A stretch of 44,219 nt of DNA from positions 1-44,219 of IMG/VR virus record IMGVR_UViG_3300031241_000009. One strand, written 5' to 3'. Position 1 is the stretch's first letter, and every line of letters begins with the position of its first letter. Below the pieces are notes generated by a model. The model saw nothing but the letters and a program-made list of their open reading frames with translations. It had not been told where the DNA came from and searched no databases. Position numbers and translations under genes: made by a program. The DNA comes from a virus. Positions 128 to 12,955 of this stretch are shown in pieces.

Positions 128-1062
128 GGCACGTGCAGTCACGCCGCCCGTTTCGGCGTGCCGGGCCCGGAGATTCGTGACGCATCGATGGCGTGACGAC
201 GCTGCGGCGGCCGTGATTCAGTCTGGCACGGTCACGGCCTCAATCAGCGGGGCCTGCGGCGTGTAGATTGCCCGGCCGGCCGTGACTGACCAGGCCATTT
301 TCGCGGCGATGAAGCGCCGCCGCCGCTCCATGCGTTTGCGGCATGCCGCCCCCGCGTGACTGGCCGGCGGTATGATTCCGCGTCCGCAGCGGCAGATGCA
401 GTCCGCGTGAGGGTCCGGGGGAGATCGACGTGACACCGCAGCGGCCAGTGACCGGCCGATCGAGAGGGGGACGCCGTTGCCGACGGCGCGGATTTTGGCC
501 TCGCGTGACCACCCAGCGAGCGTGACGGGCCCGCCGAGGCCCTGCCGCCGGCAGACCTCCGCGTAGGTCAGTGACGACGCAGCGGTCGCCGCGGTGAGGA
601 TCGCCGCGTGACGATGCCGGCGGCGCTCGCGTTGCGGGCGGATGATGTGACCGAGTTGCGAAAGAAACTGGATATGCCGCCGTCGGAGTTGCGTGCCGCC
701 GCATTCGCAATCCGCGATGTCCAGCCGCTGGTGCGAGTAGGCCGGATGCATGACGTTTGGAATCTGCGGCACGTTCTCGATGACGACCCATTCGGGGCGT
801 GATTCATCGATGACCCGCAGCAGCTCCGCCAGCATCCGCAGGCCGTGACCCGACGGCTTGCACCGGCGGGCCTTGGAGAAATCCTGGCAGGGCGGCCCGG
901 CGATGATCCCCGTGACTACGCTGCGGGGAACGTGGAAGTCTTCAATTCTGGAGTTGAACAGCGGATCGGGGCCGCGCACGACGCAGAATCCGGCCTCGCT
1001 GAAGGCGGTTCCGAGAAGATCAAGGCCGGGGAAAAGGGAAAGGACCAGCTCCATTTTGTGAC
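41..1062 (+). repeat. GTGAC-motif cluster with longer degenerate units
   Basis: The plus strand carries GTGAC at 41, 57, 71, 123, 177, 193, 282, 356, 430, 448, 505, 522, 571, 608, 647, 845, 912 and 1058, against only two complements (138, 231). Many sit in GCGTGAC. A longer form, GTGACNACGCWGCGG, is seen at 71, 193, 571 and 912, with a variant at 430. Most copies lie inside the methyltransferase gene and in different reading frames, so selection or spread acts on DNA rather than protein. A protein-binding or replication/packaging role is inference. Confidence 0.75.
218..1054 (-). CDS. C5 cytosine DNA methyltransferase
   Basis: The 278-residue product has the ordered motifs of C5 DNA methyltransferases. 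Motif I (SAM binding, LFPGLDLLGTAF) is at about 7-18. Motif IV, GPPCQDFSKA, is at 53-62 with catalytic Cys56. Motif VI (ENVP) is at 93-96, motif VIII (QLRRRHIQF) at 122-130 and motif X (GNGVPLSIGRSLA) at 192-204. The gap between VIII and X, where the target-recognition domain lies, is very short. The last 60 residues form a Cys-rich basic tail (Cys219, 221, 223, 238, then a run of Arg) resembling the zinc-finger-like tails of other phage orphan methyltransferases. No restriction partner is nearby, so protection of phage DNA or gene control is the likely role. The target sequence cannot be read from the protein. Confidence 0.9.
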   Translation of the reverse strand: MELVLSLFPGLDLLGTAFSEAGFCVVRGPDPLFNSRIEDFHVPRSVVTGIIAGPPCQDFSKARRCKPSGHGLRMLAELLRVIDESRPEWVVIENVPQIPNVMHPAYSHQRLDIADCECGGTQLRRRHIQFLSQLGHIIRPQRERRRHRHAAILTAATAASSLTYAEVCRRQGLGGPVTLAGWSREAKIRAVGNGVPLSIGRSLAAAVSRRSPPDPHADCICRCGRGIIPPASHAGAACRKRMERRRRFIAAKMAWSVTAGRAIYTPQAPLIEAVTVPD

Positions 1063-1085
1063 AGGAAGATGGGGGACAGGAAGAT
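1060..1085 (+). repeat. GACAGGAAG cassette, reverse to neighbouring genes
   Basis: Two tandem copies of GACAGGAAGAT separated by GGGG lie between the stop of the gene ending at 1085 and the methyltransferase start at 1054. The GGA-bearing strand is plus, opposite to both genes, so it would not be present in their mRNA. Confidence 0.8.
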
Positions 1086-1294
1086 TAAGGCGCTAGCTCT
1101 TCTAACGCCTTTCTCCCGGCGTCGGTGATCTGGCCCTGGTGGATGAATCCCTTGCGGACGAGCGCCGCGTAAGCACAACTCCAGGCCCCGGCCTGCGAAC
1201 GGTTGCGGGGAAAGTAGCGCCGCTCTTGGCCCTCGCTTTCCAGGCGATGGTTCTCCAGCAGTCGCCACTGCGGGATTGAAAGTTGCTTTCTCAT
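1085..1294 (-). CDS. Small winged-helix-like protein
   Basis: The product has 69 residues and no recognised family. Its C-terminal half contains ITDAGRKALEEL, a pattern typical of the wing/last helix of small winged-helix proteins, so DNA binding is possible. The gene lies between two reverse-oriented GACAGGAAG cassettes, and its stop codon abuts the downstream one. No clear Shine-Dalgarno precedes the ATG at 1294. Confidence 0.6.
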   Translation of the reverse strand: MRKQLSIPQWRLLENHRLESEGQERRYFPRNRSQAGAWSCAYAALVRKGFIHQGQITDAGRKALEELAP

Positions 1295-1299
1295 GATCT

Positions 1300-1325
1300 G
1301 ACAGGAAGATGGGGGACAGGAAGAT
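1300..1325 (+). repeat. GACAGGAAG cassette, reverse to neighbouring genes
   Basis: Same 26-base core as at 1060-1085, with GACAGGAAGAT, GGGG, GACAGGAAGAT on the plus strand. It fills the whole spacer between the gene ending at 1325 and the start codon at 1294. Confidence 0.8.
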
Positions 1326-1594
1326 TAGAGCTTCTTTGCCCAGTCCGGCTTTGTCAACTGCCAAAAGCGCCGTATGCGATTCCATTCGCGAATGGGGACG
1401 GTAACAAAGAACGATGCCGCTGGGTTTCGGTACTTTGGCATCGGCTCCGGATCAACAACGGGACTTCCATCATTCATCACATGCTGGAACCTTACGCATT
1501 TGGAAGTTACATCAAGAATAACTAACCTTTTTAGCCCGCCACGGTCGTACTTTTCGCGAATAAAGTAGCTCTGGCCCTTGACTGGTGGTTTCAT
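1325..1594 (-). CDS. Hypothetical protein
   Basis: An 89-residue protein of unknown family with a basic N-terminus and a C-terminal Trp-rich stretch (REWNRIRRFWQLTKPDW). Its start codon is the ATG of a half cassette, GGACAGGAAG-ATG, so the GGA lies only a few bases before the start. It follows the gene ending at 1607 by 12 bases and is probably co-transcribed with it. Confidence 0.6.
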   Translation of the reverse strand: MKPPVKGQSYFIREKYDRGGLKRLVILDVTSKCVRFQHVMNDGSPVVDPEPMPKYRNPAASFFVTVPIREWNRIRRFWQLTKPDWAKKL

Positions 1595-1604
1595 CTTCCT
1601 GTCC
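1592..1604 (-). repeat. Half GACAGGAAG cassette at a start codon
   Basis: A single GGACAGGAAG-ATG unit in coding orientation. The ATG is the start of the 1325-1594 gene and the GGA would act in its Shine-Dalgarno region. It also matches the core of the CsrA-binding consensus. Confidence 0.6.
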
Positions 1605-1606
1605 TT

Positions 1607-1765
1607 TCATTTTTCCGTCTGATTGGTCGCGTTTCTTGCTTTCAGCGCCTCGATCGCCAGTTCAATCCAGCGCAGCACGCGCTCGCAACTGAGGCTGATC
1701 GTGGGATGCGGTGATTTCTCGATCGCCCCGCGGATGGTCTCTAGCTCCTGGATGGTTTCGTTCAT
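1607..1765 (-). CDS. Small helical protein
   Basis: A 52-residue, probably all-helical protein of unknown function. The ATG at 1765 is chosen because it overlaps the TGA of the upstream ASCH-domain gene (ATGA), which points to translational coupling. A longer frame extends further upstream but only reads into that gene in another frame. Confidence 0.55.
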   Translation of the reverse strand: MNETIQELETIRGAIEKSPHPTISLSCERVLRWIELAIEALKARNATNQTEK

Positions 1766-2547
1766 TTGCAACTTTTTCCTGTCTGTGCGACTTGCTCGAA
1801 TGTCACAACCCAGACGTGCGGGTTCGAGGCCCACGGGTACTTTGCCCCGTTGATCTCATCCCAGAGCCGAATGAAGAGCGGCCGGCAGCCGACGTATCGC
1901 GTCGTCTGCAAATCGGCAAACTGCGGATGCGGCGCGGGAATGAATCCAGGACCAAAACCCTCTTTGACGGCGTCCTCTTCCGTGATCGCATGCAATGGCT
2001 CCAGGCGAATGTCGGTAATTTCCAGGACGATTCGGCAGGCCGATCGCGGCATGTGGATCGACGGCTTCCAGGGCGGATCGATCATCGAGTACCCGTCCTC
2101 GGCCAGCCACTGAAAATCCTGCTGGTCGGCGCGATACCAGACCTTTCGCGGCAGTTCGTTGCCGTCGTCGTCGTACTGGTCCAGATAGCCGCTGTCGGTC
2201 AACGGCCAGCCGCTGATGAAGCTCTCGCGCACCCAGAGGCGATCGCCGGGCTTGCCGTAGGGGCAGCGCAATTGAACGCAGCCGTTGACGTTCGGCGGAT
2301 AGCCGTCAGGCTTTTTCCAGCATTCGCGCACCGCCCACACCGGACCGGCAACGCGCCAGTAATCGAACTGGCCTTCCGGCGGAATCCAACTGTAGCCGTC
2401 GCCGGCCATCGCGCGCACAGCGGCGATCGATGGAGGCTGCGGCTTGACGACGCGCCTCGTCTGGGTCTTCAGGTTGCGCCGCAGTGCGCGAATCATGGGG
2501 CCGCTGAAAAGGATCGGCCGCTCCTTAATCGCCGTTGCCGTGCTCAT
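1762..2547 (-). CDS. ASCH/PUA-like domain phage protein
   Basis: The 261-residue product begins with the pattern KERPILFSGPMIRALRRNLKTQTRRVV and has CPYGKPGDRLWVRES, WKPSIHMPRSACRI, an E-E-D-A segment and the ending WVVTFEQV. This is the layout of the ASCH-domain proteins found in many phages and prophages. ASCH folds resemble PUA RNA-binding domains, so RNA binding or modification is plausible, though no phage role is established. GGGAGGAAAGCCAA precedes the ATG, and the start overlaps the stop of the upstream gene. Confidence 0.75.
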   Translation of the reverse strand: MSTATAIKERPILFSGPMIRALRRNLKTQTRRVVKPQPPSIAAVRAMAGDGYSWIPPEGQFDYWRVAGPVWAVRECWKKPDGYPPNVNGCVQLRCPYGKPGDRLWVRESFISGWPLTDSGYLDQYDDDGNELPRKVWYRADQQDFQWLAEDGYSMIDPPWKPSIHMPRSACRIVLEITDIRLEPLHAITEEDAVKEGFGPGFIPAPHPQFADLQTTRYVGCRPLFIRLWDEINGAKYPWASNPHVWVVTFEQVAQTGKSCK

Positions 2548-3701
2548 TTGGCTTTCCTCCCGGATTTCTGCGGTTCGTAGTATCGCACCTCGGCGCTCAG
2601 ATCGTGCAGCCGCATGGCCAGGGCGTAAAGGAACTTGCCGTCATGCCCGAAGCGCTGCAACAGCGGCTGGAGCATCGACTTCACGGTTTCATCGAAACGT
2701 CGCAGCGTTGCGTCTGCCTCGTGTGCGGGCTGTTCGCTGGCCACTTCCGCATACTCGCCCGTGATCGTCTCCGGCGCCACCCGCGGGGCCACGGCTTTGG
2801 GCGTCTCGTCTTCCGCAACTGCGGAGGATGCGACGTCGATGGTCACCGGTTTCGCCGTGCGGTTTGCGGCAGTCTTCGGACGCACTTTTTCCACGGCCGC
2901 CTTCACTTGCTGCCGCGTGATCTTGACGGAGCCCGCGCCGCTGGCCGCCTTCACCAGCTCCGCGGCGATCGCCTTGGCCTCTTTGGGCGTGGCGTCGGCC
3001 GGGATGTCGCGGTAGTGGCTCTCGCAGTCCAGCGTGATCTGCCGCGGCTGGAGCGTCGGCGCCATGAGGCGATAGAGCCGGGCGGCCTTCATGCAGTCGT
3101 AGACGAAGCTGTGGCCATATCCCTCGCTCTTGATCCACTGGTCGAAGGTCTCGCACTGGTCGCCGTAAGCCTCTTGCTCGCGGATCTTCTCGGCTTTCTC
3201 GCCCAGCTCGACGAAGCGCTGCATGCAGGTCTGATAGCAGCGGCGGAAGTCTTCCAGGAGCGCCTGGCACTCGCGGCCGTTGAGCATTTTCGTGCGCGTT
3301 GTGGTGGTCATAGTACCCTCCTTTTTGGCAGCCCGCTCGAAGTTCTCGTTCCACGCGTTCAGCGCGGTGATGATCCGCGCGAGCCATTGGCGCTTGTTGC
3401 CGCGCTCGCGGTCCGCGGCGTCGACCAGGCGGTTTGTGAGCGCCTCGACGGCATCCGACACGGCGTGCCAGCGTTCACGGCCGGCGGCGCTCTGGGCCCG
3501 TTCGAGGGAATTCCCCAAGATAGCCTCGGCATACCAGCCGGGCAGTCGCTCGCGGGAACGCGGATAGAGCCCCACGCATACCTTGGCCGACATCCGCGTT
3601 TCCGCCGGCATTGGGATCTCGATCGTCTCATAGCCCGACGTCGCCTGGCCGTCTTCGTTGAGCGTCATGAGCTGCGGCTTGCGGGTTGCGATTGCAGTCA
3701 T
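2544..3701 (-). CDS. ParB-like/HTH phage protein with internal start
   Basis: The frame encodes 385 residues. Residues 131-385 have a pattern seen in plasmid and phage ParB-like proteins: a helical segment (GRECQALLEDFRRCYQ), then an EAYG...TFDQWIKSEGYGHSFVYDCMKAARLYRLM helix-turn-helix-like region, and a region resembling the resolution part of the family (ESHYRDIP...PKEAKAIAAELVKAA). The first 130 residues look like a separate unrecognised domain. At 3311 an in-frame ATG follows AAGGAGGGTACT, a very strong ribosome-binding site, so a shorter 255-residue product is probably also made. The gene overlaps the ASCH gene by 4 bases. Confidence 0.65.
   Translation of the reverse strand: MTAIATRKPQLMTLNEDGQATSGYETIEIPMPAETRMSAKVCVGLYPRSRERLPGWYAEAILGNSLERAQSAAGRERWHAVSDAVEALTNRLVDAADRERGNKRQWLARIITALNAWNENFERAAKKEGTMTTTTRTKMLNGRECQALLEDFRRCYQTCMQRFVELGEKAEKIREQEAYGDQCETFDQWIKSEGYGHSFVYDCMKAARLYRLMAPTLQPRQITLDCESHYRDIPADATPKEAKAIAAELVKAASGAGSVKITRQQVKAAVEKVRPKTAANRTAKPVTIDVASSAVAEDETPKAVAPRVAPETITGEYAEVASEQPAHEADATLRRFDETVKSMLQPLLQRFGHDGKFLYALAMRLHDLSAEVRYYEPQKSGRKAK
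3311..3322 (-). promoter_or_regulatory. Strong internal ribosome-binding site, nested start
   Basis: AAGGAGG followed by five bases and ATG lies in frame inside the 2544-3701 gene, at codon 131. It is stronger than the initiation sites of most neighbours and coincides with the start of the recognisable domain. Confidence 0.65.
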
Positions 3702-3719
3702 CGAGCGGTTCCTTTTCGG

Positions 3720-5099
3720 TCAGTGGGTGCTTGCGGCGGCGAGCCGCTTGGCCTTGCGTTGCGAGGGCAGGTCGATGCCGCACTCCCGCGCCAGATCGCA
3801 GACGCGCTTGTTGAACCACTTGCCCCGCGGCCAGTGCGTCTGTCCGTTGCGGGTCTGGACTTCGCGGAGGTCCGCCAGTTCCTGCTCATAGGCCGCCATG
3901 CGGCCGAAGATCAAACCCGCATCTTCGCGGCCCGATTGCCCGTAGACCAACTTCAGGTCGGCGGCGAAACCGAAAAGCCACTCGCGGCAGTCGGGGTCGT
4001 TGACCAGGCCGCGGAAGCGGATCACCAGCCGCTCTTTCTGCCGCTGCATCGTGGTGGCGTCCGCGATCGCCTGGATGCACGCGGCCAGTTTGCCCTCGGC
4101 CGGTTCGGCGGCGGTCCGCTGGCGATCCGTGGCTGCGCGGCAACGGTCGATGTGCGCCTGCGTCGCGGCCAGCAGCGCGGCTTCGTCGGCTTCGGCCGGC
4201 GGCCTCGCGTGTGTCTTTGGGTTCATTGGTTTCATTAGGTCATTGGAAACCATTGGATAGGATTCTTCTTTAGAAGAATCCAAAGACGCGGGCGCGTGCG
4301 TAGTAGACTGCGTGTCGGGCGGTTTTTCGGCCGATTTTTGGGCGCGGGGAATTCCCCGCGTGTTTGGTGGCGAAAGTGCGGGGAATTCCCCGCGTGTTTC
4401 CGGGCTCGGGGAATTCCCCGCGTGTCGTTTTTCCGCAGAAATCGGGGGTTTTTGGAGCGCGGGGAATTCCCCGCGCGGTCCCGATGCGGCTTGGAGCGCG
4501 GGGAATTCCCCGCGCGATTCTGACCGAAAGCGCGGGGAATTCCCCGCGTGTCCGGGAGTGAAAATGACCGAGGCGTGGAGAGTTCCCGCTGGATCGGCTG
4601 TCTCCAGCGGGTTGTCTCCACGCCTCGCTTGGGGCGCGGCTCCATCGAACGCGGCAGGGCAATTTGGTTCCCCGGTTGCACCGGGGGCTTCGGATCCCTG
4701 GCCGACACGTCCTTGTGAGTCGCGCGGGGCGGGCGTCACTTCCGCCCCGGTATCAATGATAGCATCGTCGGAAAAATTTGGCAGCACGAGCTGCGGATCG
4801 GGCTGGGCGGTGGCGTGCCCCGCAAACGGGCGGTAGATGTCCACCTTGTAGCGTCCGCCGCGATCGCGATTGCATTCGCGGATGTGGAACAGGTCGTGGA
4901 TGGCATGCAGCTTCTTGATCTGCGCGCGAATGCTCGACGGGTCGCGACCCAGTTCCTTGGCCAGCCATTTGGCGGTGAAAACGTAGCCTTCGCAGGGCTT
5001 GCCGCCGGCGGCCTCCCATACCACGCCGAAGAGCATGGTCGCAGGGTGTCCGATCTTTGGATTCTTGCGCAAATAGCGGATGTCTTTCCAAACGTCCAA
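3720..5099 (-). CDS. Replication-initiator-like protein with embedded iterons
   Basis: About 459 residues from a proposed TTG at 5099, preceded by GCGAAGGATTGCATC; the first ATG of the frame is 22 codons later. Residues about 5-90 look like a winged helix typical of replication initiators (MLFGVVWEAAGG..., then KWLAKELGRDPSSIRAQIKKLH). A proline/charge-rich linker follows, encoded by six palindromic repeats read in all three frames (AGNSPR, RGEFPAL, RGIPRA). The C-terminal helical region ends in WPRGKWFNKRVCDLARECGIDLPSQRK. An initiator with origin repeats inside its own gene is the arrangement of lambda O. Origin recognition is inferred, not shown. Confidence 0.65.
   Translation of the reverse strand: MDVWKDIRYLRKNPKIGHPATMLFGVVWEAAGGKPCEGYVFTAKWLAKELGRDPSSIRAQIKKLHAIHDLFHIRECNRDRGGRYKVDIYRPFAGHATAQPDPQLVLPNFSDDAIIDTGAEVTPAPRDSQGRVGQGSEAPGATGEPNCPAAFDGAAPQARRGDNPLETADPAGTLHASVIFTPGHAGNSPRFRSESRGEFPALQAASGPRGEFPALQKPPISAEKRHAGNSPSPETRGEFPALSPPNTRGIPRAQKSAEKPPDTQSTTHAPASLDSSKEESYPMVSNDLMKPMNPKTHARPPAEADEAALLAATQAHIDRCRAATDRQRTAAEPAEGKLAACIQAIADATTMQRQKERLVIRFRGLVNDPDCREWLFGFAADLKLVYGQSGREDAGLIFGRMAAYEQELADLREVQTRNGQTHWPRGKWFNKRVCDLARECGIDLPSQRKAKRLAAASTH
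4343..4548. repeat. Six palindromic iterons, candidate replication origin
   Basis: Six copies of the palindrome CGCGGGGAATTCCCCGCG (18 bases, some with one terminal base changed) are centred at about 4351, 4385, 4413, 4466, 4505 and 4539. Spacings are 34, 28, 53, 39 and 34 bases. They are not multiples of three, so the copies fall in three different reading frames of the surrounding gene. This is DNA-level repetition and recalls initiator-binding iterons inside lambda O. Confidence 0.8.
4569..4627. repeat. 59-base inverted repeat beside the iterons
   Basis: The outer arms CGAGGCGTGGAGA (4569-4581) and its complement (4615-4627) pair over 13 bases. A 3-base symmetrical internal loop follows, then inner arms CCCGCTGGA (4585-4593) and TCCAGCGGG (4603-4611), with a 9-base loop. 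It lies 21 bases from the last palindromic iteron and inside the same gene. A cruciform or single-strand structure at the origin is a reasonable guess. Confidence 0.75.
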
Positions 5100-5116
5100 G
5101 ATGCAATCCTTCGCTG

Positions 5117-5365
5117 CTAAGCTTCCTTGATCTCTTTGATTACTTCGTTCATGGCGTCTTGCGCCGCGCGGACCAGCCGCTCGATCTGCGCCGCGGTGCA
5201 TTCGACGCCCCGATATCCGGTCGCCATCGCGGCGGCGGTGGCCAGTACGACGCCCACAAGGGCGCTCGCCTCGGCCTCGTTGTCTGCTGGATGGCGGCGG
5301 AGCAGGTCTGTAATCTCCCGACTCGCCAGCATCAGCTTTGTCTGATTGACTCGCGGCGCGTTCAT
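5117..5365 (-). CDS. Small Ala-rich helical protein
   Basis: An 82-residue protein of unknown function. It has a hydrophobic Ala-rich middle (ASALVGVVLATAAAMA) and an amphipathic C-terminal helix. The ATG at 5365 is the final codon of a forward GACAGGAAG cassette, and longer upstream reading belongs to the preceding gene in another frame. It ends 17 bases before the proposed TTG start of the replication gene. Confidence 0.6.
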   Translation of the reverse strand: MNAPRVNQTKLMLASREITDLLRRHPADNEAEASALVGVVLATAAAMATGYRGVECTAAQIERLVRAAQDAMNEVIKEIKEA

Positions 5366-5390
5366 CTTCCTGTCCTCGATCTTTCTGTCA
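5363..5390 (-). repeat. GACAGGAAG cassette supplying a start codon
   Basis: In coding orientation it reads GACAGAAAGATC, GAG, GACAGGAAG-ATG. The first unit has lost its GGA. The TGA of the upstream gene overlaps the first GACAG and the last ATG starts the gene at 5117-5365, so the cassette is the entire spacer. Confidence 0.75.
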
Positions 5391-5615
5391 AAACAAACTT
5401 CCTTGTGCCGCCGGCGTCTCACGTTCCGGCGCTTTCGTTTCACGTTCGGCCGCTTTCGTTTCACCGATGCCCGTCTGCCGCCGGTAGTGGCTCCAGACGA
5501 ATTGGCCGACTCCGTTCTCCACGATCGCGTCCAGTTCACTTCCAAACAGCGGGCCGACGCGCAGGACAGATAGCCCCGCGGCCTCGATCTCCGCTCGCAT
5601 TGTGGCTTCGTTCAT
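5388..5615 (-). CDS. Small protein with possible clamp-binding tail
   Basis: A 75-residue protein of unknown function. It contains a threefold ERETKA-type repeat (residues about 51-67) and ends in QGSLF. That pentapeptide resembles the bacterial beta-sliding-clamp-binding motif (Q-L-S/D-L-F), which could tether it to the replisome; this is inference. The ATG at 5615 overlaps the stop of the upstream gene (ATGA). Confidence 0.55.
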   Translation of the reverse strand: MNEATMRAEIEAAGLSVLRVGPLFGSELDAIVENGVGQFVWSHYRRQTGIGETKAAERETKAPERETPAAQGSLF

Positions 5616-5995
5616 CGTCCGTTTCCCTCCAGCAAAAGCTGCTGATGAGTAAGCCGCTTGGCGCGGACGATCGGCGGCCGCGGCTCCTCCGCCTGGCTCT
5701 CCGGGAAAATCTCTCCCACGTCGATCGGATCGCTTTGAGCGGCGCGGCTGCCGTTGCATCCGTCCCGCGGCCGTGGCCGGTCGAGATGCACGCAATCCGC
5801 GCCGACGGTCTTGAAGGACATTTCTTCGCGGTAACGCGGCCGCCAAAAGTCGCCGCTGAAGTCCGGCTCCACGATCTGGCAGCGCGCCAAGACCTGGAGC
5901 AGTTTGGCCAGCGTTTCGCCGTCCGGGACCGCGATCGCTGAAAGGCCGATGTTCACGATGTGAACCTGTGTCGCCGGGATTGTTCTTTTTGCCAT
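5612..5995 (-). CDS. Hypothetical protein
   Basis: A 127-residue protein without a recognised family. The N-terminal half (VHIVNIGLSAIAVPDGETLAKLL) looks like a compact alpha/beta domain and the C-terminus is basic. Its start is the last ATG of a two-unit GACAGGAAG cassette, and its end overlaps the next gene by 4 bases. Confidence 0.6.
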   Translation of the reverse strand: MAKRTIPATQVHIVNIGLSAIAVPDGETLAKLLQVLARCQIVEPDFSGDFWRPRYREEMSFKTVGADCVHLDRPRPRDGCNGSRAAQSDPIDVGEIFPESQAEEPRPPIVRAKRLTHQQLLLEGNGR

Positions 5996-6019
5996 CTTCC
6001 TGTCCTCATCTTCCTGTCA
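5993..6019 (-). repeat. GACAGGAAG cassette supplying a start codon
   Basis: In coding orientation two GACAGGAAGATG units separated by AG lead directly into the start codon of the 5612-5995 gene. The two GGA triplets are 14 bases apart, a spacing a CsrA dimer could plausibly bridge. Confidence 0.8.
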
Positions 6020-6029
6020 AACTAAAACC

Positions 6030-6206
6030 TCAAAACTTCAACTTGGTCCAAAGCCATACCAAAATCAGTGCCCCGGCAACGATCGCCGCGGCACGCCACC
6101 AATCCCGCTCTTTGACCAGGCTCTCCATGGATGCCGCGATCCTTTTCTTCTCTGCCGCCGCCAGGGCGGCCTCGGGCGTCTGTTTCTTTCGCGGTTTGCG
6201 TGCCAT
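6030..6206 (-). CDS. Small C-terminally anchored membrane protein
   Basis: A 58-residue protein with a basic N-terminus (MARKPRKKQ), an Ala/Glu/Lys helix and one C-terminal transmembrane segment (WWRAAAIVAGALILVWLW, about 36-53). It is probably inserted in the inner membrane, role unknown. Its ATG is the last codon of the hairpin-containing cassette at 6204-6250. Confidence 0.65.
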   Translation of the reverse strand: MARKPRKKQTPEAALAAAEKKRIAASMESLVKERDWWRAAAIVAGALILVWLWTKLKF

Positions 6207-6250
6207 CTTCCTGCCGACCCAGAGTACTGGGTGCCCCGATCTTCCTGTCA
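6204..6250 (-). repeat. GACAGGAAG cassette with internal hairpin
   Basis: In coding orientation it reads GACAGGAAGATCGGGGC, then a perfect hairpin ACCCAG-TACT-CTGGGT (plus-strand 6217-6232), then CGGCAGGAAG-ATG. The stop of the upstream gene overlaps the first unit and the last ATG starts the next gene. The copy at 9667-9711 has the same structure with one compensated base pair. Confidence 0.8.
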
Positions 6251-6514
6251 GTTCCACTGTGCTGCCCGCCGCATCTTGCACGCCGGGCAATCGCAGGGCT
6301 TGATCGTCACCTTGCCCAGCGGGACCATAATAAACTCCTGGTTGAGGCGGGCCTCCAGGTCGGCCTTGATCTTCTCCGCCAGCTTTCTGGCGGCCTCGAA
6401 GTCCGCGTCGAGATTGCTTGGTGTCGCCGGCGACACTAAGCTTGGCGGATCTTTCGGCGGCGGGCCGCTGATGAACCTCTTGATCGCCGCTTTCAGTTTT
6501 TCCAGTGCGTCCAT
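6248..6514 (-). CDS. Small protein with C-terminal Cys cluster
   Basis: An 88-residue protein. The N-terminal half is a helical segment (DALEKLKAAIKRFI) and a proline-rich link, followed by a helix (FEAARKLAEKIKADLEARL). The C-terminus has CDCPACKMRR, a possible half zinc knuckle. AGGAG six bases before the ATG at 6514 supports the start. Function unknown. Confidence 0.6.
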   Translation of the reverse strand: MDALEKLKAAIKRFISGPPPKDPPSLVSPATPSNLDADFEAARKLAEKIKADLEARLNQEFIMVPLGKVTIKPCDCPACKMRRAAQWN

Positions 6515-6525
6515 TCAAAACTCCT

Positions 6526-6552
6526 GACAGGAAAATGGGGGACAGGAACATA
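6526..6552 (+). repeat. GACAGGAAG-type cassette, reverse
   Basis: The plus strand reads GACAGGAAAATG, GGG, GACAGGAACAT, opposite to the genes around it. Its complement ends just before AGGAG, the ribosome-binding site of the 6248-6514 gene. The 90 bases from 6553 to 6642 show nothing recognisable. Confidence 0.7.
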
Positions 6553-6642
6553 GAAAACCGCCGGGGCGCAGACCGCCAGCCGAGCAAGGCAAAAACTGTG
6601 GCCAGCGCTGCGCCCCGGCGTCCGCCTCGTCTAGAGGTTCGA

Positions 6643-7875
6643 TCAGCTCGCAGCCCGCCGCTCTTGTTCGGCAAGCCAGGCGTCGAAACGCTCGTAGAGC
6701 CGCCTGGGCGGCGTGAGCGCGGCCGCGGCCGCCGCCTCTTGCTCCGGCCCCCAGCTCTCCGCATGCGTAGGCCGGTGCGGATAGACCGGCTCCGGCCAGG
6801 CGAATCCGGGCACGATCGGCAGCGTGAAGGGCTCCATCACCGCCGGCACGCGCTCCAGCGTGTCCAGGTAGTGCCGGAAGATCACGTCGCCGCCGTGGCC
6901 GCAGAGCAATTTCTCGACGTCCTGGTCCTTGGCCTTGACCCACGTGCTGAAGCGCTTCCTTAAGTCCTGCTGTGGCTTGTCGCCGTCGTCGATGCCGCAC
7001 TCCCGTACGAAGGCGTGCCACTTGTTCACCGACCAGCCCCAGCCGCTTACGCGGCAATGCCGGTTCGCCGCCCAGTCCCAGGCCGATTGACCGCGGAGGG
7101 CCTGCACGATCCCCAGGGCCTGCGAGTTCAGGTAGCTGATCCGCATGCCCGTCTTGCCCACAACGAGCACCCAATGCCCCTCCTGGTCCGCCCGCAAGGC
7201 CGTGAGGGCCTCGCTCAGCCGCGGCCCCCAGAGCAGTATGAGGGCCTGCGTGAGTACGACTTGCCGGGCGTGGGCCTGCGAGACGACAGAAGCCAGCACG
7301 GCCCGCCAGCGCTCCACCAGGGCGTCCATTTTGGGCACGATCGGCGGCAGCCGGTTGAATTTTTTCCTTTTCCGCCGCTCGATTTCCACCGGGACCTTGA
7401 GCCAGCGCAGCAGGTGTCCGCCTTGCGTGCAGTACTTGGCGATCGTCGTCGCGCTCCGCGGCCGGCCGCTGGAGAATTTGGGCGGCGGCCAGGAGAGGAA
7501 GGCCGAGACGCTCTGCCGCGTGATCTCCCGCGGGTACGCGCCCCGCTTGCGGCGGTAGGCCGGCGTCTCCCGCAGCCAGTCCAGCCAGCGGACACAGGTC
7601 TCGGAGTTGAGTTCCCTGAGCGGCGGGTCGCCCAGAAACTCCAGCAGCGACCAGGCGGTCTCGCGATAGCCGCGGATTGTGAGTTCCGCCGCGCCTTCCT
7701 GCCGCTGCCGCGCCAGGAAGGCGGCGATGCCCTCGCTGAGCATGGCATTTTCGGATGGCGGCTGCACTAGCCGCGGGGACTGGCCCGCGGACCCTTCGGT
7801 GGTGGGCTGGGAAATGAAAACTCCGTTGACGATCGACGTCCGTGCCGCTCCTATCTCCTCGTTGCGAAACAGCAT
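6643..7875 (-). CDS. int: Tyrosine recombinase (phage integrase)
   Basis: The 410-residue product has a SAM-like core-binding domain at about 45-165 (LARQRQEGAAELTIRGYRET...). The catalytic domain shows Arg219 in WGPRLSEALT, the beta-hairpin Lys241 in VVGKTG, Arg306 in QQDLRKR, His327 in LLCGHGGD and nucleophile Tyr336 in IFRHYLD, nine residues after the His. The usual His of the H-x-x-R box is Gln303. The first 45 and last 60 residues are extra and low in complexity. It probably integrates the phage at a host attachment site; the tRNA-like sequence at 12884-12955 is a candidate but is 5 kb away. Confidence 0.88.
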   Translation of the reverse strand: MLFRNEEIGAARTSIVNGVFISQPTTEGSAGQSPRLVQPPSENAMLSEGIAAFLARQRQEGAAELTIRGYRETAWSLLEFLGDPPLRELNSETCVRWLDWLRETPAYRRKRGAYPREITRQSVSAFLSWPPPKFSSGRPRSATTIAKYCTQGGHLLRWLKVPVEIERRKRKKFNRLPPIVPKMDALVERWRAVLASVVSQAHARQVVLTQALILLWGPRLSEALTALRADQEGHWVLVVGKTGMRISYLNSQALGIVQALRGQSAWDWAANRHCRVSGWGWSVNKWHAFVRECGIDDGDKPQQDLRKRFSTWVKAKDQDVEKLLCGHGGDVIFRHYLDTLERVPAVMEPFTLPIVPGFAWPEPVYPHRPTHAESWGPEQEAAAAAALTPPRRLYERFDAWLAEQERRAAS

Positions 7876-7905
7876 TGACTACCTCTAACGATAGGACACG
7901 ACTTT

Positions 7906-7947
7906 GCGGGCCGCGCAAGCCTGCGCACCATGCGCAGTGCGGCCCGC
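7906..7947. promoter_or_regulatory. Nested inverted repeat upstream of integrase
   Basis: The arms GCGGGCCGC (7906-7914) and GCGGCCCGC (7939-7947) enclose CTGCGCA-CCA-TGCGCAG (7921-7937). It lies 31 bases upstream of the integrase start. It could be an operator, an attachment-site arm or a terminator for the gene that ends at 7978. Confidence 0.6.
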
Positions 7948-7977
7948 TGGAGTTCCATTGTAATTCTGCGCGCGCGT

Positions 7978-8397
7978 TCATTCTTGCGGCCCCCGATTTT
8001 TGAGGAGCATCGCCCGTCCCTTACGATGCCGCTCGCTGTATTGCACCTGGTCGTAGTCGTAGCCCGCCGCGCATTGCAGACACAAGAATCGCAGCGGCCG
8101 CCCGCGGCGAATGGGGATCGCTTCGGCGCGGCGGATGGTCCAGGAGTCGGCCAGCACGATCGCCTCGCAGTCGCTGCATACGCGGGCCTGCGGATCGCCG
8201 CCGATGAGGTCGTGGCGGAACTCCTGCGGCAGCGCGCAGACGATGACGATCGCGTCCGCCGGCCAGTCCTTCAACGGCCGATTACCGTTGCCGTTTTGGG
8301 CCTGCTCCGCGGCGGGAACTTCAACCACCGGAGTACTGCTACTGTGTTCCGTTTGCCCTTCGGGCAAGCTTGGTAAGATGGGAGGTTGTAAATTCAT
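7978..8397 (-). CDS. Zinc-ribbon-like hypothetical protein
   Basis: A 139-residue protein with a disordered N-terminus (about 1-40) and two Cys pairs, CSDC and CLQC, some 35 residues apart, consistent with a treble-clef or zinc-ribbon fold. The C-terminus is basic. Family and role are unknown. Confidence 0.6.
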   Translation of the reverse strand: MNLQPPILPSLPEGQTEHSSSTPVVEVPAAEQAQNGNGNRPLKDWPADAIVIVCALPQEFRHDLIGGDPQARVCSDCEAIVLADSWTIRRAEAIPIRRGRPLRFLCLQCAAGYDYDQVQYSERHRKGRAMLLKNRGPQE

Positions 8398-8519
8398 GCT
8401 AGCTTACGTTGCCTCTCGTAACTCAAATTTGCTCTTCGCTGCGCCCTGGCGGGTCGTCGGGCGGCCGGCTCCAAGCCGGACGGATTTTCCCGAGTAACGT
8501 CCCTAACAATGGTACTGAC

Positions 8520-8789
8520 TTACTTGACGCACCATTCAAGGCCATTCCAAAAATAGCCTTCCAATTTCTTTAAAAAGGCAAAGACCCGGCCGCCGGGAAT
8601 TTCGGTCGCCTGGAAGTCTTCAACGAAATCAATATGCACGGTAACGCAAATGGCACCGAGCTGCTTGGCACGCTTCACGATACACGATGCGCAAAGTATC
8701 CCGTTTTCCGGGCAAATCATTTCCCATTGTCTACCGGTCAACACAGTGTCGAGTGGCATCTCTTCCGTGCTGCAATCTAGGCAGGTCAT
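8520..8789 (-). CDS. Small zinc-ribbon protein
   Basis: An 89-residue protein starting MTCLDC, with a second cluster CPENGILCASCI about 25 residues later. This two-cluster arrangement is common in small phage proteins of unknown role and probably binds one zinc. The gap 8398-8519 before it shows no further feature. Confidence 0.65.
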   Translation of the reverse strand: MTCLDCSTEEMPLDTVLTGRQWEMICPENGILCASCIVKRAKQLGAICVTVHIDFVEDFQATEIPGGRVFAFLKKLEGYFWNGLEWCVK

Positions 8790-8876
8790 CGGATTTTCCT
8801 TGTCTGGTGTTCCAAGTATGTCAGTACCCTAACAATTCCCTACGGCCCGCCAGGCCGCGGCGTCTGTCGTCAAAAG

Positions 8877-8908
8877 CTGAAAGGCTGAAAATCTGAAATG
8901 CTGAAATC
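8877..8908 (+). repeat. Tandem CTGAAANN octamers
   Basis: Four consecutive 8-base units beginning CTGAAA (8877, 8885, 8893, 8901) differ only in their last two bases. They lie in the gap between the genes ending at 8520-8789 and 8913-9356. This is one of several intergenic iterated-repeat families in the window. Confidence 0.75.
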
Positions 8909-8912
8909 GTGT

Positions 8913-9356
8913 TTAGCTTCGTGGTGCTTCAAAAGCGTTGCACGTCCGTCGGCCGTTGGTTCGTTCGCCCCGGAGCATGCAAAAGCGGTGGCCTGGTCCG
9001 CCGGTGTACTCCAGGCGCCAGCAGCAGCGAAGGCATTCCGCGCAGGTCATTCCGGCGGTCTCTTCGTCCCACGCGGCCAGGCGATAATCCCAGAGATTCA
9101 AAATGTCGTCGTCGCCGATCGGCAGCCCGGCCGAGGATTCGTCGCTCTTGGCGATCTCCTCCATTTCGGCCGCCAACTGCTCGAAGCGATTGGCGTACCC
9201 CTCGGCGATGTCGGCCATCTCCGAAATGTTGTGCCGCAGCGTCCCGGAGTAATGAACGTAGGAACACGAAGAACACTCGCTCCGAAGCTCGTCACACAGC
9301 GCGTCAAACTTTTTGGCGATCTGCTTTTCGCTGGCGCTGAGCGTTGTGATATTCAT
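8913..9356 (-). CDS. Cys-rich hypothetical protein
   Basis: A 147-residue protein. The N-terminal 90 residues are helical (ASEKQIAKKFDALC...NRFEQLAAEMEEIA). The C-terminal part has MTCAECLRCCWRLEY and CMLRGERTNGRRTCNAF, a likely zinc-binding module. Start at ATG 9356, just after a GACAGGAAAATA cassette end; an upstream in-frame ATG would lie inside the cassette. Confidence 0.6.
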   Translation of the reverse strand: MNITTLSASEKQIAKKFDALCDELRSECSSCSYVHYSGTLRHNISEMADIAEGYANRFEQLAAEMEEIAKSDESSAGLPIGDDDILNLWDYRLAAWDEETAGMTCAECLRCCWRLEYTGGPGHRFCMLRGERTNGRRTCNAFEAPRS

Positions 9357-9358
9357 TA

Positions 9359-9383
9359 TTTTCCTGTCCTCCATCTTCCTGTC
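9359..9383 (-). repeat. GACAGGAAG cassette before a start codon
   Basis: In coding orientation GACAGGAAGATG, GAG, GACAGGAAAA, followed by TAATG, whose ATG starts the 8913-9356 gene. The GGA here has near-optimal ribosome-binding distance. Confidence 0.75.
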
Positions 9384-9520
9384 TTTCAGCTTTTTCAATC
9401 TGCCCGCCGCCGAAGGATCCTCGACTCTCTGAAAATCGAAGGACGGCGAGCACGGCCACCCGTTGCACGCGCTGAAAACGGTTTGTATCCCTATGGGCTA
9501 AAGGGGTATACGCTCCCCTG

Positions 9521-9656
9521 CCCTGCCCTTGAATTCCTTGCCCATTTCGCCAGTTTTGCCTATTCCGATTATGCGGGGTATGTGACAAATGGGGCAAAAT
9601 TGGCAAACTCGCGGCCGGGAAGGGCAGGGCCGTACTCCTCACGCTCCGCCGTGAGG
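9521..9656. promoter_or_regulatory. Nested inverted repeats in a 330-bp gene-free gap
   Basis: The gap 9384-9716 has no convincing gene. It holds outer arms CCCTGCCCTT (9521-9530) and AAGGGCAGGG (9620-9629). Inner arms GCCAGTTTTGCC (9549-9560) and GGCAAAATTGGC (9593-9604) match in 11 of 12 bases and are nearly concentric with the outer ones. A separate hairpin CCTCACG-CTCCGC-CGTGAGG lies at 9637-9656. It may be an operator/terminator region or another intergenic repeat family. Confidence 0.5.
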
Positions 9657-9666
9657 CAGGATCGCA

Positions 9667-9711
9667 GACAGGAAGATCGGGGCACCCGGTACTCCGGGTC
9701 GCAGGAAGATG
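9667..9711 (+). repeat. Hairpin-type GACAGGAAG cassette, reverse
   Basis: The plus strand reads GACAGGAAGATCGGGGC, hairpin ACCCGG-TACT-CCGGGT (9684-9699), CGCAGGAAGATG. Compared with the copy at 6204-6250 the fifth base pair of the stem is G-C instead of A-T, and the loop TACT is unchanged. It lies 5 bases beyond the stop of the 9717-9908 gene and opposite to it. Confidence 0.8.
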
Positions 9712-9716
9712 ATCGG

Positions 9717-9908
9717 TCACCGCAGTGCCTCCTGGATTTGAAGGAAGATCTGCCGCCAGGTCTCGACGGTTGTGGCCTTGATGGCCGGCGGGTTCTCCTC
9801 GCAGTTCAATAGCACGGTTTCGATCAGCGTCCGCGCCTCGCGCAGCCTTTGTTCGGCCGTCGCCTGCTCTTTGGCTCGTTTCGCGCTGCTGACTCGTTTG
9901 GCCGTCAT
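9717..9908 (-). CDS. Small basic helical protein
   Basis: A 63-residue protein, basic at the N-terminus (MTAKRVSSAKRAKEQ), then a long helix and a conserved-looking TVETWRQIFLQIQEAL end. The ATG at 9908 overlaps the stop of the upstream gene (ATGA). Function unknown. Confidence 0.55.
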   Translation of the reverse strand: MTAKRVSSAKRAKEQATAEQRLREARTLIETVLLNCEENPPAIKATTVETWRQIFLQIQEALR

Positions 9909-10129
9909 GCTGGCACCGCGGGGCTTTCTTTGAGACTCTCGATGTAGCGATCGACGACGCGATTGTAGGACGCAAACACGTCCTGCCAATTCTTCCGCGC
10001 CTCTTGGACCGCCGCCAGTTCTGCCTCTCCGATCAGGTAGGCAAAACGCAGATCCTCGTACTGCCTTCCCAGCGCTTCCGCGGTTCGGCGGTAGCTCTTG
10101 ATGCGGGCTTCCGTTTTTGGGTCCCTCAT
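9905..10129 (-). CDS. Small helical protein downstream of csrA
   Basis: A 74-residue, largely coiled-coil-like protein (KTEARIKSYRRTAEALGRQYEDLR...). Two in-frame starts exist, 10129 and 10144, each preceded by ACAGGAA(A/G); 10129 is preferred because the five extra residues of the longer form are only cassette sequence. It follows csrA with the cassette as the whole spacer, so the pair is probably one operon. Function unknown. Confidence 0.6.
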   Translation of the reverse strand: MRDPKTEARIKSYRRTAEALGRQYEDLRFAYLIGEAELAAVQEARKNWQDVFASYNRVVDRYIESLKESPAVPA

Positions 10130-10154
10130 TTTCCTGTCCCCCATCTTCCTGTCA
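10127..10154 (-). repeat. GACAGGAAG cassette between csrA and next gene
   Basis: The csrA stop TGA is the first three bases of TGACAGGAAGATG. A second unit, GGGGACAGGAAA-ATG, gives the start codon of the downstream gene. The two GGA cores are 15 bases apart. The first ATG is also in frame. Confidence 0.8.
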
Positions 10155-10334
10155 GACTTCCGACGCCTCGGCCGCGATCCGCTCGGCGACCTCGGCCCGA
10201 TGCACGGGCACTTCCATCGGCGCGTCGATGCCCAGCCGCACGCGGCCCTCCTTGATCTCCAGGACCGTGATCGTCACGTCGCCGCGGTAGCCAATGTGGA
10301 TCACCTCTTCGAGCTTCCTTGATAGCACTAACAT
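10152..10334 (-). CDS. csrA: CsrA-family translational regulator
   Basis: The 60-residue product is full length for CsrA/RsmA. It begins MLVLSRKLEE, has VTITVLEIKEGRVRLGIDAP in the middle and PMEVPVHRAEV, which contains the conserved VHR whose Arg contacts the GGA of target RNAs. CsrA dimers bind GGA-containing sites, often overlapping the Shine-Dalgarno, and repress or activate translation. AAGGAGG with six bases to the ATG is a strong ribosome-binding site, unlike the GACAGGAAG starts of its neighbours. Homologues on phages, plasmids and integrative elements are known. Here the likely targets are the phage's own cassette-bearing mRNAs, host mRNAs, or both. Confidence 0.95.
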   Translation of the reverse strand: MLVLSRKLEEVIHIGYRGDVTITVLEIKEGRVRLGIDAPMEVPVHRAEVAERIAAEASEV

Positions 10335-10345
10335 GAAAAACCTCC

Positions 10346-10374
10346 TTGCATTGCCGTCCCGCCGTGGCTATATT
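10346..10374 (+). promoter_or_regulatory. Candidate plus-strand promoter divergent to csrA
   Basis: TTGCAT (10346-10351), a 17-base spacer and TATATT (10369-10374) make a good sigma70-type promoter pointing away from csrA. Its -35 lies close to the csrA ribosome-binding site. Confidence 0.5.
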
Positions 10375-10380
10375 GGCGCA

Positions 10381-10454
10381 AGAAGGCCGGCGGATTGACC
10401 TCCTTGCGCGTCTTCACTGGCCCCGGATGGCAGCACCAACTCCGGGGCCTTTTT
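10381..10454 (+). ncRNA. Candidate sRNA divergent from csrA
   Basis: A transcript from the promoter at 10346-10374 would run about 74 nt to an intrinsic terminator. It contains ACCTCCTTGC (10398-10407), an exact repeat of 10340-10349, and is therefore complementary to ten bases spanning the csrA Shine-Dalgarno. It also has two GGAT motifs (10392, 10425), one in a possible hairpin loop, so it could either pair with csrA mRNA or bind CsrA. No ORF of note is present. It is a prediction from promoter and terminator only. Confidence 0.5.
10419..10454 (+). terminator. Intrinsic terminator, plus strand
   Basis: Stem GGCCCCGGA (10419-10427) with TCCGGGGCC (10441-10449), a 13-base loop, and TTTTT directly after. 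It works only in the plus direction, although no plus-strand gene ends here. Confidence 0.75.
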
Positions 10455-10475
10455 CGTTTCTTGCGGTTAAAATCG

Positions 10476-11000
10476 CTAAACCCAGGTCTCGATCTGCCCG
10501 CGGTAATCATTGCAATGTTCCCCGGAATGACCCTGGGGGCGCACGCATACGTGCCCGCTGACCGAATTCGAGGCGAAGCAAAAACGAGTGCCCGGCGCGT
10601 GGTTCCTCTTTTCAGCGCGGTAAAATTCACGCTTCCTTCGGATCTGCTGTGCTTCTCCGGGATGCTTCTGCTCGTCAAGCCATCTAAGGACCTGGAAAAC
10701 GCGTTGCCGCGTTACGCCACCCAACCGGGCGGCTATTTCCTGCCAATTGTTCGCGCCGTCGATCGCCGCTTCGATGCGGGCGATGGTCGCGGCCCTTCGT
10801 TCTGCGGAGATTATCGCTTGTGGGCGGCGCGTACTTGCTGGTTCCTTCGGCTTGCGGGGTCTAGCCTGATATTTGGCCCGCGCTTTCCCGCGGTACCTTT
10901 CCGCTGCAACTGCGCGTCGGGCGGCAAGACACGCCGGGCAGGCGTGCTTTCCTTTCTCCGTTCGCTGATGGCCGCAGGAATAGCGTTCGGTCAGCTTCAT
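10476..11000 (-). CDS. Zinc-finger and HTH regulatory protein
   Basis: The 174-residue product has an N-terminal zinc module (CGHQRTEKGKHACPACLAAR, about 9-28) and a basic linker. A helix-turn-helix follows (NWQEIAARLGGVTRQRVFQVLRWL, about 85-108), then a C-terminal Cys/His cluster with C-V-R-P-Q-G-H-S-G-E-H-C. It is probably a DNA-binding regulator of early phage genes. It is first in the leftward unit that includes csrA, if that unit starts upstream of 11000. Confidence 0.7.
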   Translation of the reverse strand: MKLTERYSCGHQRTEKGKHACPACLAARRAVAAERYRGKARAKYQARPRKPKEPASTRRPQAIISAERRAATIARIEAAIDGANNWQEIAARLGGVTRQRVFQVLRWLDEQKHPGEAQQIRRKREFYRAEKRNHAPGTRFCFASNSVSGHVCVRPQGHSGEHCNDYRGQIETWV

Positions 11001-11276
11001 TGCTGGCTCGGTCTACGCGCCGCACGCGGCCCGGATAGTCGCGGTTTGTTCCCGCTGAGGTATAGACGGGTCCCCAAACGTGACTATCCGGACCAGCGGC
11101 GTTCTCATACCGAATGAGGGTTCGGTTTGGCCGGATCCGGTCCCGCGCGGGACCTAAACAGAAGCGGCCGTTGCAAGCTCGTTGAAGCTCACAACGGTCC
11201 CATTGTAACAGGTGTCACAGGTCGGTCAAGGGGGATATCCCAAGAATCTTGGACAGAAAAAAGGACCAGGAAAAGC
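11001..11276. promoter_or_regulatory. Palindrome-rich control region
   Basis: This 276-base gap carries arms CCGGATAGTC (11031-11040) and GACTATCCGG (11082-11091) and a hairpin ACCGAA-TGAGGG-TTCGGT (11109-11126). Two adjoining palindromes follow, CCGGATCCGG (11131-11140) and GGTCCCGCGCGGGACC (11139-11154). It lies between two regulators (zinc/HTH protein and XRE repressor), so operators are likely; no binding protein can be assigned. Confidence 0.55.
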
Positions 11277-11681
11277 TTAGTCGCAAACGGAATCGATAGG
11301 CGCGCCGAAGTGAGCTTCGAGCTTTTCCCGATGGGCCGGAATCGGCTTTCGTAGTCCGCCAACATAACGGTTGATTGAGGCCCGGCAAATTCCCGTTGCA
11401 GCGGCGACGCGGCTCTGGTTCTCGTCGCGTTCAAGCATCAATGTTTTGATGCGTTTGCCAATACGACGGGCCTCACTACAGCCGACGGAACTCGGTTTTC
11501 GGCGTTTAAGAAGTCCTGTGCTCACGCTGGCATTGTACCCATTCCCGCGCCCGTTTGTCAACGGATTTGCGGTTTTGCCGCCGGTTTTCCCGTTTTTCGC
11601 GAGGTGCCGGCGGACCTGCTCTTTTTCCGCGGCGTCGAGCCGTTCGTAGGCCGAAACGATTTCTTTAACCTTCTTGGTCAT
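11277..11681 (-). CDS. XRE/Cro-CI-type repressor
   Basis: A 134-residue protein whose C-terminal 65 residues are an XRE-type helix-turn-helix (IGKRIKTLMLERDENQSRVAAATGICRASINRYVGG). The N-terminal part (EIVSAYERLDAAEKEQVRRHL) is helical and may serve in dimerisation, joined by a Gly/Asn-rich linker. Its place, divergent from a plus-strand gene and beside palindromes, fits a lysogeny repressor or Cro-like switch. No peptidase domain is present, so it is not a LexA-type repressor. Confidence 0.75.
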   Translation of the reverse strand: MTKKVKEIVSAYERLDAAEKEQVRRHLAKNGKTGGKTANPLTNGRGNGYNASVSTGLLKRRKPSSVGCSEARRIGKRIKTLMLERDENQSRVAAATGICRASINRYVGGLRKPIPAHREKLEAHFGAPIDSVCD

Positions 11682-11733
11682 GGGTCTGCCGATAGAAGAG
11701 AGGTCAGGTAACGCATTTCACGGAGGTGTGCTT

Positions 11734-12054
11734 ATGTTCTATTGGTGGCCGGAGTTTGAACCGGGTTCTACGCTCCTGGATGTGTTGGAGCGTGCGATCG
11801 AGCGCAACGAGACGGCGGCCGCGAACTACTCGAAGCGTCTGGTCGAGTTCGGAGAGAGTAACGAGATCGTTGGTCAATCCGACAACCGGGAACGCGCGAT
11901 CGCCTGCTATGCGGCGGCCGACGTGCTGACGCGGGTGCGGTCGCTGCTGGCGCCGTCTAAACATCCGTCACCTCGCGAGCGATCAGCGGTTTCAGACGCG
12001 CCCATTCCTCGTGCGTCAGAGGCACCTTTTGTCCCGTTGAAAGCGTCAGGGTGA
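11734..12054 (+). CDS. Hypothetical protein
   Basis: A 106-residue protein of unknown family (MFYWWPEFEPGSTLLDVLERAIERNE...). GGAGG and ten bases precede the chosen ATG at 11734; an earlier in-frame ATG lacks this. It is divergent from the repressor, with only 52 bases between, so the two share a control region. Its last 98 bases overlap the opposite-strand gene 11957-12169, and that part of the protein is low in complexity. Confidence 0.6.
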   Translation: MFYWWPEFEPGSTLLDVLERAIERNETAAANYSKRLVEFGESNEIVGQSDNRERAIACYAAADVLTRVRSLLAPSKHPSPRERSAVSDAPIPRASEAPFVPLKASG

Positions 12055-12169
12055 CCCCTGAGCTACGGGGGTCAGGGTGGCCCACCTCGACGAAAACGAC
12101 CTGTTCGGGGTCGAAAAGCGTCTCGGCCGGGTCGTTTTCCGGCGATCGAATGCGCACGAATCTAGCCAT
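11957..12169 (-). CDS. Small beta-rich hypothetical protein
   Basis: A 70-residue protein with alternating strands (FVRIRSPEN...QVVFVEVGHP...VTLTLSTGQKVPLTHEEWARLKPLI), like small single-domain proteins seen in bacterial genomes. It converges on and overlaps the plus-strand gene 11734-12054, so one of them may be shorter than drawn. Function unknown. Confidence 0.55.
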   Translation of the reverse strand: MARFVRIRSPENDPAETLFDPEQVVFVEVGHPDPRSSGVTLTLSTGQKVPLTHEEWARLKPLIAREVTDV

Positions 12170-12221
12170 TTCTTCGCTTTCCCTAGTTTGAGGTTCTTAT
12201 GTCCAAACGGAGGGCCTGGTC

Positions 12222-12750: not shown

Positions 12751-12861
12751 CTCGAAGAGCCTCCGTTCTCCGTCAAATCATGGGTTTCCCCTCCAAGGGA
12801 CTTTTTTAGACGGCCGGCGCACGCAAACGCGCGGGGCCGTTCGTTTCGTTTTCGTGTGCGG

Positions 12862-12879
12862 GGGATTCCGAAGAATCCC
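12862..12879 (-). terminator. UUCG-capped hairpin after tRNA-like element
   Basis: On the minus strand GGGATTC-TTCG-GAATCCC forms a 7-bp stem with the very stable C(UUCG)G tetraloop. It starts a few bases after the tRNA-like sequence. No U tract follows, so it may be an RNA-processing or stability element rather than a full terminator. Confidence 0.45.
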
Positions 12880-12883
12880 GTTC

Positions 12884-12955
<72 letters not shown>

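Follow-up and report, generated by a model that had tools for sequence, protein, structure and literature searches.

A 44,219-base IMG/VR virus record of a tailed phage (IMGVR_UViG_3300031241_000009), analysed over its whole length and called the window below, carries six copies of the palindrome CGCGGGGAATTCCCCGCG at 4343–4548, within the minus-strand gene 3720–5099. We consider it likely, with a probability of about 0.8 as judged from sequence comparison, that this array is the initiator-binding part of a phage replication origin and that it lies inside the gene of its own initiator, as in phages lambda and SPP1. Four observations carry this reading: the array itself, its confinement to the gene, its recurrence in relatives and a minimum of DNA stability adjoining it. 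The gene, the array and the flanking elements are listed here by window coordinates; P0002 is a homologous protein of another phage, G416/L015, described below.

3720–5099, minus strand: putative replication initiator gene, an open frame of 459 amino acids from TTG at 5099, the start being set by that of P0002
4779–5099, minus strand: N-terminal domain (residues 1–107), probable winged helix-turn-helix, 40% identical to P0002
4200–4778, minus strand: linker (residues 108–300), predicted disordered (predicted local distance difference test, pLDDT, below 50), bearing the putative origin elements
3723–4199, minus strand: C-terminal helical domain (residues 301–459) with the motif WLFGFAADL ... 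GKWFNK, common to P0002 and in part to P0003
4343–4360, no strand: palindrome 1, exact 18-mer
4377–4394, no strand: palindrome 2, one mismatch, perfect core of 16 bp at 4378–4393
4405–4422, no strand: palindrome 3, one mismatch, perfect core of 14 bp at 4407–4420
4458–4475, no strand: palindrome 4, exact 18-mer within a 20-bp palindrome at 4457–4476
4497–4514, no strand: palindrome 5, exact 18-mer within a 20-bp palindrome at 4496–4515
4531–4548, no strand: palindrome 6, exact 18-mer
4225–4285, no strand: candidate DNA unwinding element from the nearest-neighbour profile, the least stable 60 bp of the 44-kb window, 66% AT
4260–4281, no strand: AT-rich dyad GGATTCTTCTTTAGAAGAATCC, seen in the sequence within the unwinding element
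4569–4627, no strand: long inverted repeat on the opposite side of the array from the unwinding element, with 25-nt arms that are 88% complementary

Palindrome array within the coding sequence

The presence of six 18-bp palindromes in about 200 bases, first reported in a sequence-only reading of this DNA, was confirmed, four copies being exact and two having a single mismatch. GGGGAATTCCCC occurs exactly six times in the window (at 4346, 4380, 4408, 4461, 4500 and 4534); with at most one mismatch seven matches were found against 0.19 expected, a number that none of 100 shuffles reached. Likewise, six copies of one 12-bp palindrome were observed compared with a maximum of four copies of any such palindrome in 200 third-order Markov simulations, and six clustered inverted pairs compared with at most three in 60 simulations.

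The centres of the palindromes are 34, 28, 53, 39 and 34 bp apart (3.2, 2.7, 5.0, 3.7 and 3.2 turns), and together the six copies occupy all three codon phases. The earlier statement that the spacings are not multiples of three thus holds for four of the five, 39 bp being the exception, while the use of three frames was borne out. The GC content of the three codon positions is flat in the linker (0.66/0.60/0.59), in contrast to the flanking domains (0.64/0.43/0.79 and 0.71/0.50/0.87), and this loss of contrast fits a stretch maintained for its DNA. Since the linker is predicted to be disordered, it would be free to carry DNA signals.

The half-site was described by the 11-bp pattern CGCGGGG[AG][ATG]T[TC]. 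The pattern was derived from the arrays themselves, so the telling point is its absence elsewhere and not its presence inside. All its occurrences in the window (10 of 10) and in the relatives G416 (6 of 6) and L065 (12 of 12) fall within the arrays, and none was found outside the arrays in these three sequences. Among the motif-bearing contigs (26 genome and 11 viral), an array was present in L015 only. The earlier claim that a DNA function is kept within the coding region is strongly supported by the recurrence of the half-site in a 29%-identical homolog and in a syntenic relative, in other frames and arrangements, and by a linker without the codon-position GC signature.

Adjoining region of low stability

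The putative unwinding stretch 4225–4285 lies on the 3' side of the array in the gene sense, at a distance of 58 bp. A stability minimum was found 3' of the main array in all four loci compared (the window, G416, L065 and G609). The low-stability 60-bp stretch ranks lowest in the window and lowest in 30 kb of G609, and is in the top 0.04% in G416 and the top 0.07% in L065; the same stability value is reached by 0% of equal-length segments elsewhere in the window, 3.0% in G416 and 3.8% in L065. Beyond the unwinding stretch, G416 and L065 contain one additional half-site pair. The array is also flanked by dyads and hairpins in both the window and L065, where the relative position of a hairpin (14-nt arms, 100% complementary) matches that of the inverted repeat 4569–4627.

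The same computation was applied to lambda as a control. The four annotated lambda iterons were recovered, occupying three codon phases, and the 60-bp minimum of stability over 2 kb followed iteron 4 directly on its 3' side. The origin reading is stronger because of the adjoining stability minimum in four loci and the matching lambda control, which also support the initial suggestion of an origin candidate parallel to that of lambda.

Related loci

Three loci carry the decisive comparison. G416/L015 is a 42-kb phage that is otherwise distant from the window (portal 21%); L015 was reached through the DNA motif and not through peptide scans. Its protein P0002 is homologous to that of the window (blastp, 29% identity, E 5e-42). 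The P0002 linker contains the window palindrome once in perfect form and in several variants, in other frames than in the window; TCGCGGGGAATTCCCCGCGA and CACGGGGAGTTCCCCGTG are among its palindromes. In CACGGGGAGTTCCCCGTG both arms are altered together, a compensated change. Other half-sites of this phage stand back to back as AAACTCCCCGCGGGGAATTT.

In L065, the frame preceding a homolog (48%) of the gene downstream of the array gene holds several 30-bp palindromes made from the same half-site, e.g., CGCGGGGGTTTTGGCGCAAGAATCCCCGCG. Half-site pairing in L065 and L015 includes back-to-back and overlapping copies. The GAATTC pointed out earlier in the palindromes is not essential to the site, as the relatives have AGTT or a 16-bp centre. 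It should be mentioned that the contig end adjoining the array in L065 carries a 27-bp tandem repeat CCCCGGCCGCTGATCGGTCGGGGAAGC (L065:17682–17789). A satellite repeat in L092 was rejected as a plain tandem array.

G609 is a Planctomycetota genome with a tailed prophage, found with the narrower N-domain profile A3, in which two tandem genes share the N-terminal domain of the window protein (profile E 7e-10 for the tandem paralog; hhalign E 7e-7 for the array gene). Further matches to profile A5, near E 0.005, were weak. The longer G609 gene contains, at the same place in the gene, three copies of a differing palindrome, TTCCG[GT]TTTC...GAAAACGGAA, which within 30 kb is confined to this gene. 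The window and L015 have similar probable recognition helices (RDPSSIRAQIKKL and RDGSSLRGHLEKL) and an identical half-site; in G609 both helix and half-site differ (RAQSRADEWIDKL). Judged from these sequences, half-site and helix may change together, a lead that consists of three points only.

Two genes in tandem, L099:1474–1782 and 1802–2950, share this winged-helix-like domain at their N-terminal ends; the short one is without linker and C-terminal domain and could regulate the initiator. A ParB protein (PF02195, E 2e-31) is encoded two genes after the in-gene array (L100:7745–9397, G609:C2), and plasmid-like maintenance of the prophage is possible.

Protein encoded by the array gene

The first ATG of the frame, at 5201, would give 493 amino acids; the start was taken as the TTG at 5099 because P0002 begins with ATG at the equivalent DVW residue. 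Members of the N-domain family gave weak, sub-threshold but correctly placed matches to HTH_11 (E 0.0068) and HTH_20 (E 0.008), and a low-confidence model (pLDDT 50) has the predicted winged-helix-like order a-a-b-a-a-b-b. From these matches and this model, the N-terminal domain likely binds DNA. Viral contigs scanned for exact peptides of the whole protein and of each of its two domains gave no match. No homolog was obtained by tblastn of phage and plasmid records, and no match at E below 0.001 in a fold search with the low-confidence structure models.

The following sequence of events may be proposed. The probable winged-helix domain at the N-terminus would bind the half-site CGCGGGGAATT, and two half-sites face to face would make one 18-bp palindrome holding a dimer. 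Six dimers would fold the DNA and melt the adjoining AT-rich stretch 4225–4285, after which the C-terminal domain, perhaps with the product of the downstream gene, would bring the host helicase. From the arrangement described above we infer that the encoded protein binds the sites, that the DNA melts, that a helicase is recruited and that the array acts as an origin.

Several points weigh against the origin reading, which passes from anatomy to function by inference. The array gene had been called a replication gene; its anatomy suggests this role, but the protein has no family match, since comparison with Pfam, PHROGs and PDB families gave nothing above the cut-off. The N-domain paralog P0004 touched phrog_270, "replication initiation protein" (E 2.8e-4), a candidate that was rejected because every one of the 14 control genomes is matched by this profile too. 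Neither a helicase nor a loader for it could be recognised. In L065 the N-terminal domain would lie beyond the contig end, and the C-terminal domain is not recognisably related. The stability minimum is moderate in each single locus save the window, and it is the agreement of place and side over four loci that makes the argument; with 100-bp windows, a site at 8483 is less stable than the unwinding stretch. The GC-skew check proposed earlier was uninformative for the origin, the extremes not agreeing in sign between the window and G416.

Comparison with known systems

In lambda, the iterons are inverted repeats to which O binds as a dimer, and this binding opens an adjoining 40-bp AT-rich region (PMC5043065, PMC7466680); the earlier remark that palindromic iterons are unusual was therefore wrong. 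Stx lambdoid phages also have six iterons (PMC7466680). The window resembles the lambda origin in gene O in having inverted-repeat sites inside the (here putative) initiator gene, in all codon phases, between an N-terminal domain that in the window is probably DNA-binding and a C-terminal domain, with an AT-rich, presumably melting region 3' of the array. Unlike the lambda iterons, the window sites are perfect GC-rich palindromes spaced 28–53 bp, as compared with 20–24 bp, and the window is without a recognisable P gene. Comparison of its protein with lambda O revealed no similarity of sequence (hhalign probability 0.1%). As a control of the PHROGs search, lambda O matched 13 families, whereas P0001 and P0002 matched none, including the O-like families.

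In SPP1, oriL is located in gene 38: the initiator gene itself contains the binding repeats and an AT-rich unwinding element (PMC6316719). Two parts of such a layout, binding-site-like repeats inside one early gene and an adjoining AT-rich region, were found in the window. The SPP1 repeats are direct, however, and SPP1 has a second origin, oriR, and its own helicase and loader, and for the window protein no homology to a named family was found. Iteron plasmids of the RepE, RK2 and P1 type share with the window an array of initiator sites, putative in the window, beside an AT-rich region; their initiators are of the winged-helix type, as the window protein probably is. Their iterons are directly repeated and helically phased; the window sites are inverted, not helically phased and inside the gene. 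Palindromic repeats within genes, such as the Rickettsia palindromic elements, are longer and mobile and occur dispersed among genes. Like them, the window palindromes are read through in several frames, but they are short and confined to one gene.

The array is most likely an origin of the known lambda type, and what looks new is a putative initiator without a match to a known family, in a poorly known group of phages that probably infect Planctomycetota. A search of the open-access literature turned up no published origin of replication, and no initiator, of Planctomycetota phages. It can be tentatively suggested, at somewhat less than even odds, that the protein represents a new initiator family, probably of Planctomycetota phages, independent of lambda O. 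In this family the half-site (CGCGGGG plus AT) would be kept among distant members while its pairing is rewired: two half-sites may face each other across 4 bp, stand back to back or be separated by 16 bp. In G609 the helix residues of the N-terminal domain and the half-site would have changed together, so that the linker would evolve as an origin open to free rewriting, diverging in step with the protein. If true, the window offers a concrete 1.4-kb replicon and a case of the lambda layout with an initiator unrelated by sequence. The relatives, with their different half-site arrangements, would form a natural series in which to study the reading of DNA by initiator dimers, and the replicon would be a possible seed for vectors in bacteria with few genetic tools.

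Alternative explanations

An operator or silencer, a partition site, mRNA hairpins and an idle repeat are each poorer than an origin at explaining the confinement to one gene and the unwinding region together. Palindromes are the usual form of operators too, and a dimeric repressor, this protein or another, might control the early operon without any role in replication; a regulator would also fit the winged-helix signal, and a repressor-like gene is present at 11277–11681. Yet the sites lie about 550–760 bp inside the gene and not at a promoter, there are none elsewhere in the genome, and an operator does not predict the adjoining stability minimum in four loci, so that we regard this explanation as unlikely. 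Quite improbable is a role in partition, with the array as a centromere-like site, or as some other nucleoprotein anchor, of a plasmid-like prophage: clustered palindromes do resemble partition sites, and in the G609 prophage a ParB-type protein is encoded two genes further downstream, but the array tracks the winged-helix gene and not a ParB gene, and the window proteins tested, those of the neighbouring genes among them, included neither ParA nor ParB.

The transcript folds far better than its shuffles (z –8.7), as it should if the palindromes were mRNA hairpins, e.g., timing translation or protecting the transcript. However, every DNA palindrome folds as RNA, and in L065 and L015 the back-to-back or overlapping half-sites could not all form hairpins simultaneously. 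The mRNA strand of L065 would moreover have A–C mismatches where the other strand has G–U pairs, and we hold this role to be very improbable. Finally, a mobile or expanding palindromic repeat without function might have settled by chance in a tolerant linker; all three frames of the palindrome are open, so insertion would be tolerated, and the linker is predicted to be disordered. No copy was found elsewhere in the three phages, only L015 among the motif-bearing contigs surveyed above has an array, and the return of the array at the orthologous place, differently arranged, speaks for selection, which makes a chance settlement the least credible of these explanations.

Neighbouring genes, host and other observations

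The gene next to the array gene is located as follows.

2544–3701, minus strand: next gene downstream, 385 amino acids; its 48% identical homolog adjoins the array in L065

This gene is without known family and shows a weak match (hhalign probability 25%) to the gene adjoining P0002; its product is possibly an accessory replication factor. Planctomycetota genomes searched with it and with profile A2 gave no matches. Gene 1762–2547 was rejected as a lead to relatives, as it pointed to the unrelated phage L044. A few genes upstream of the putative initiator, a tyrosine-recombinase-like protein (6643–7875, minus strand), with a weak SAM-like match only, may be an integrase.

Minus-strand genes of the window encode terminase, portal, head protease, major head protein and tape measure. 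The 17.8-kb piece L065 unites the terminase side and the gene adjoining the array, i.e., both ends of the window, and the gene order is therefore circular or permuted. Portal homologs were found in 9 of 392 Planctomycetota genomes, with up to 39% identity, whereas the best cultured phages reach about 24%. A planctomycete is the probable host, as suggested by the portal homologs and a phage CsrA. The latter is encoded at 10152–10334 on the minus strand (PF02599, E 3e-21) and is also present in G416 (48%). An Rfam search revealed tRNAs only. A thioredoxin-fold protein is encoded directly upstream of the terminase genes (39715–40353, minus strand).

A paired short repeat, GACAGGAAGATGGRGGACAGGAAGAT, was found at gene boundaries on both strands in the region 1060–13448. 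Examples of its pairs are given below.

1060/1075, 1300/1315, 5364/5379, 5994/6008, 6526/6541, 9358/9373, 10128/10143 and 13423/13438: paired repeat GACAGGAAGATGGRGGACAGGAAGAT

With at most one mismatch, GACAGGAAGAT had 20 matches against 0.41 expected. Neither L065 nor G003 contains the core GACAGGAA, which occurs no more than once or twice in G416 and G609. The plus-strand copies of GACAGGAAGATGGRGGACAGGAAGAT are at odds with a simple ribosome-binding-site reading; the repeat resembles the GGA motifs bound by CsrA, for which the phage has a gene.
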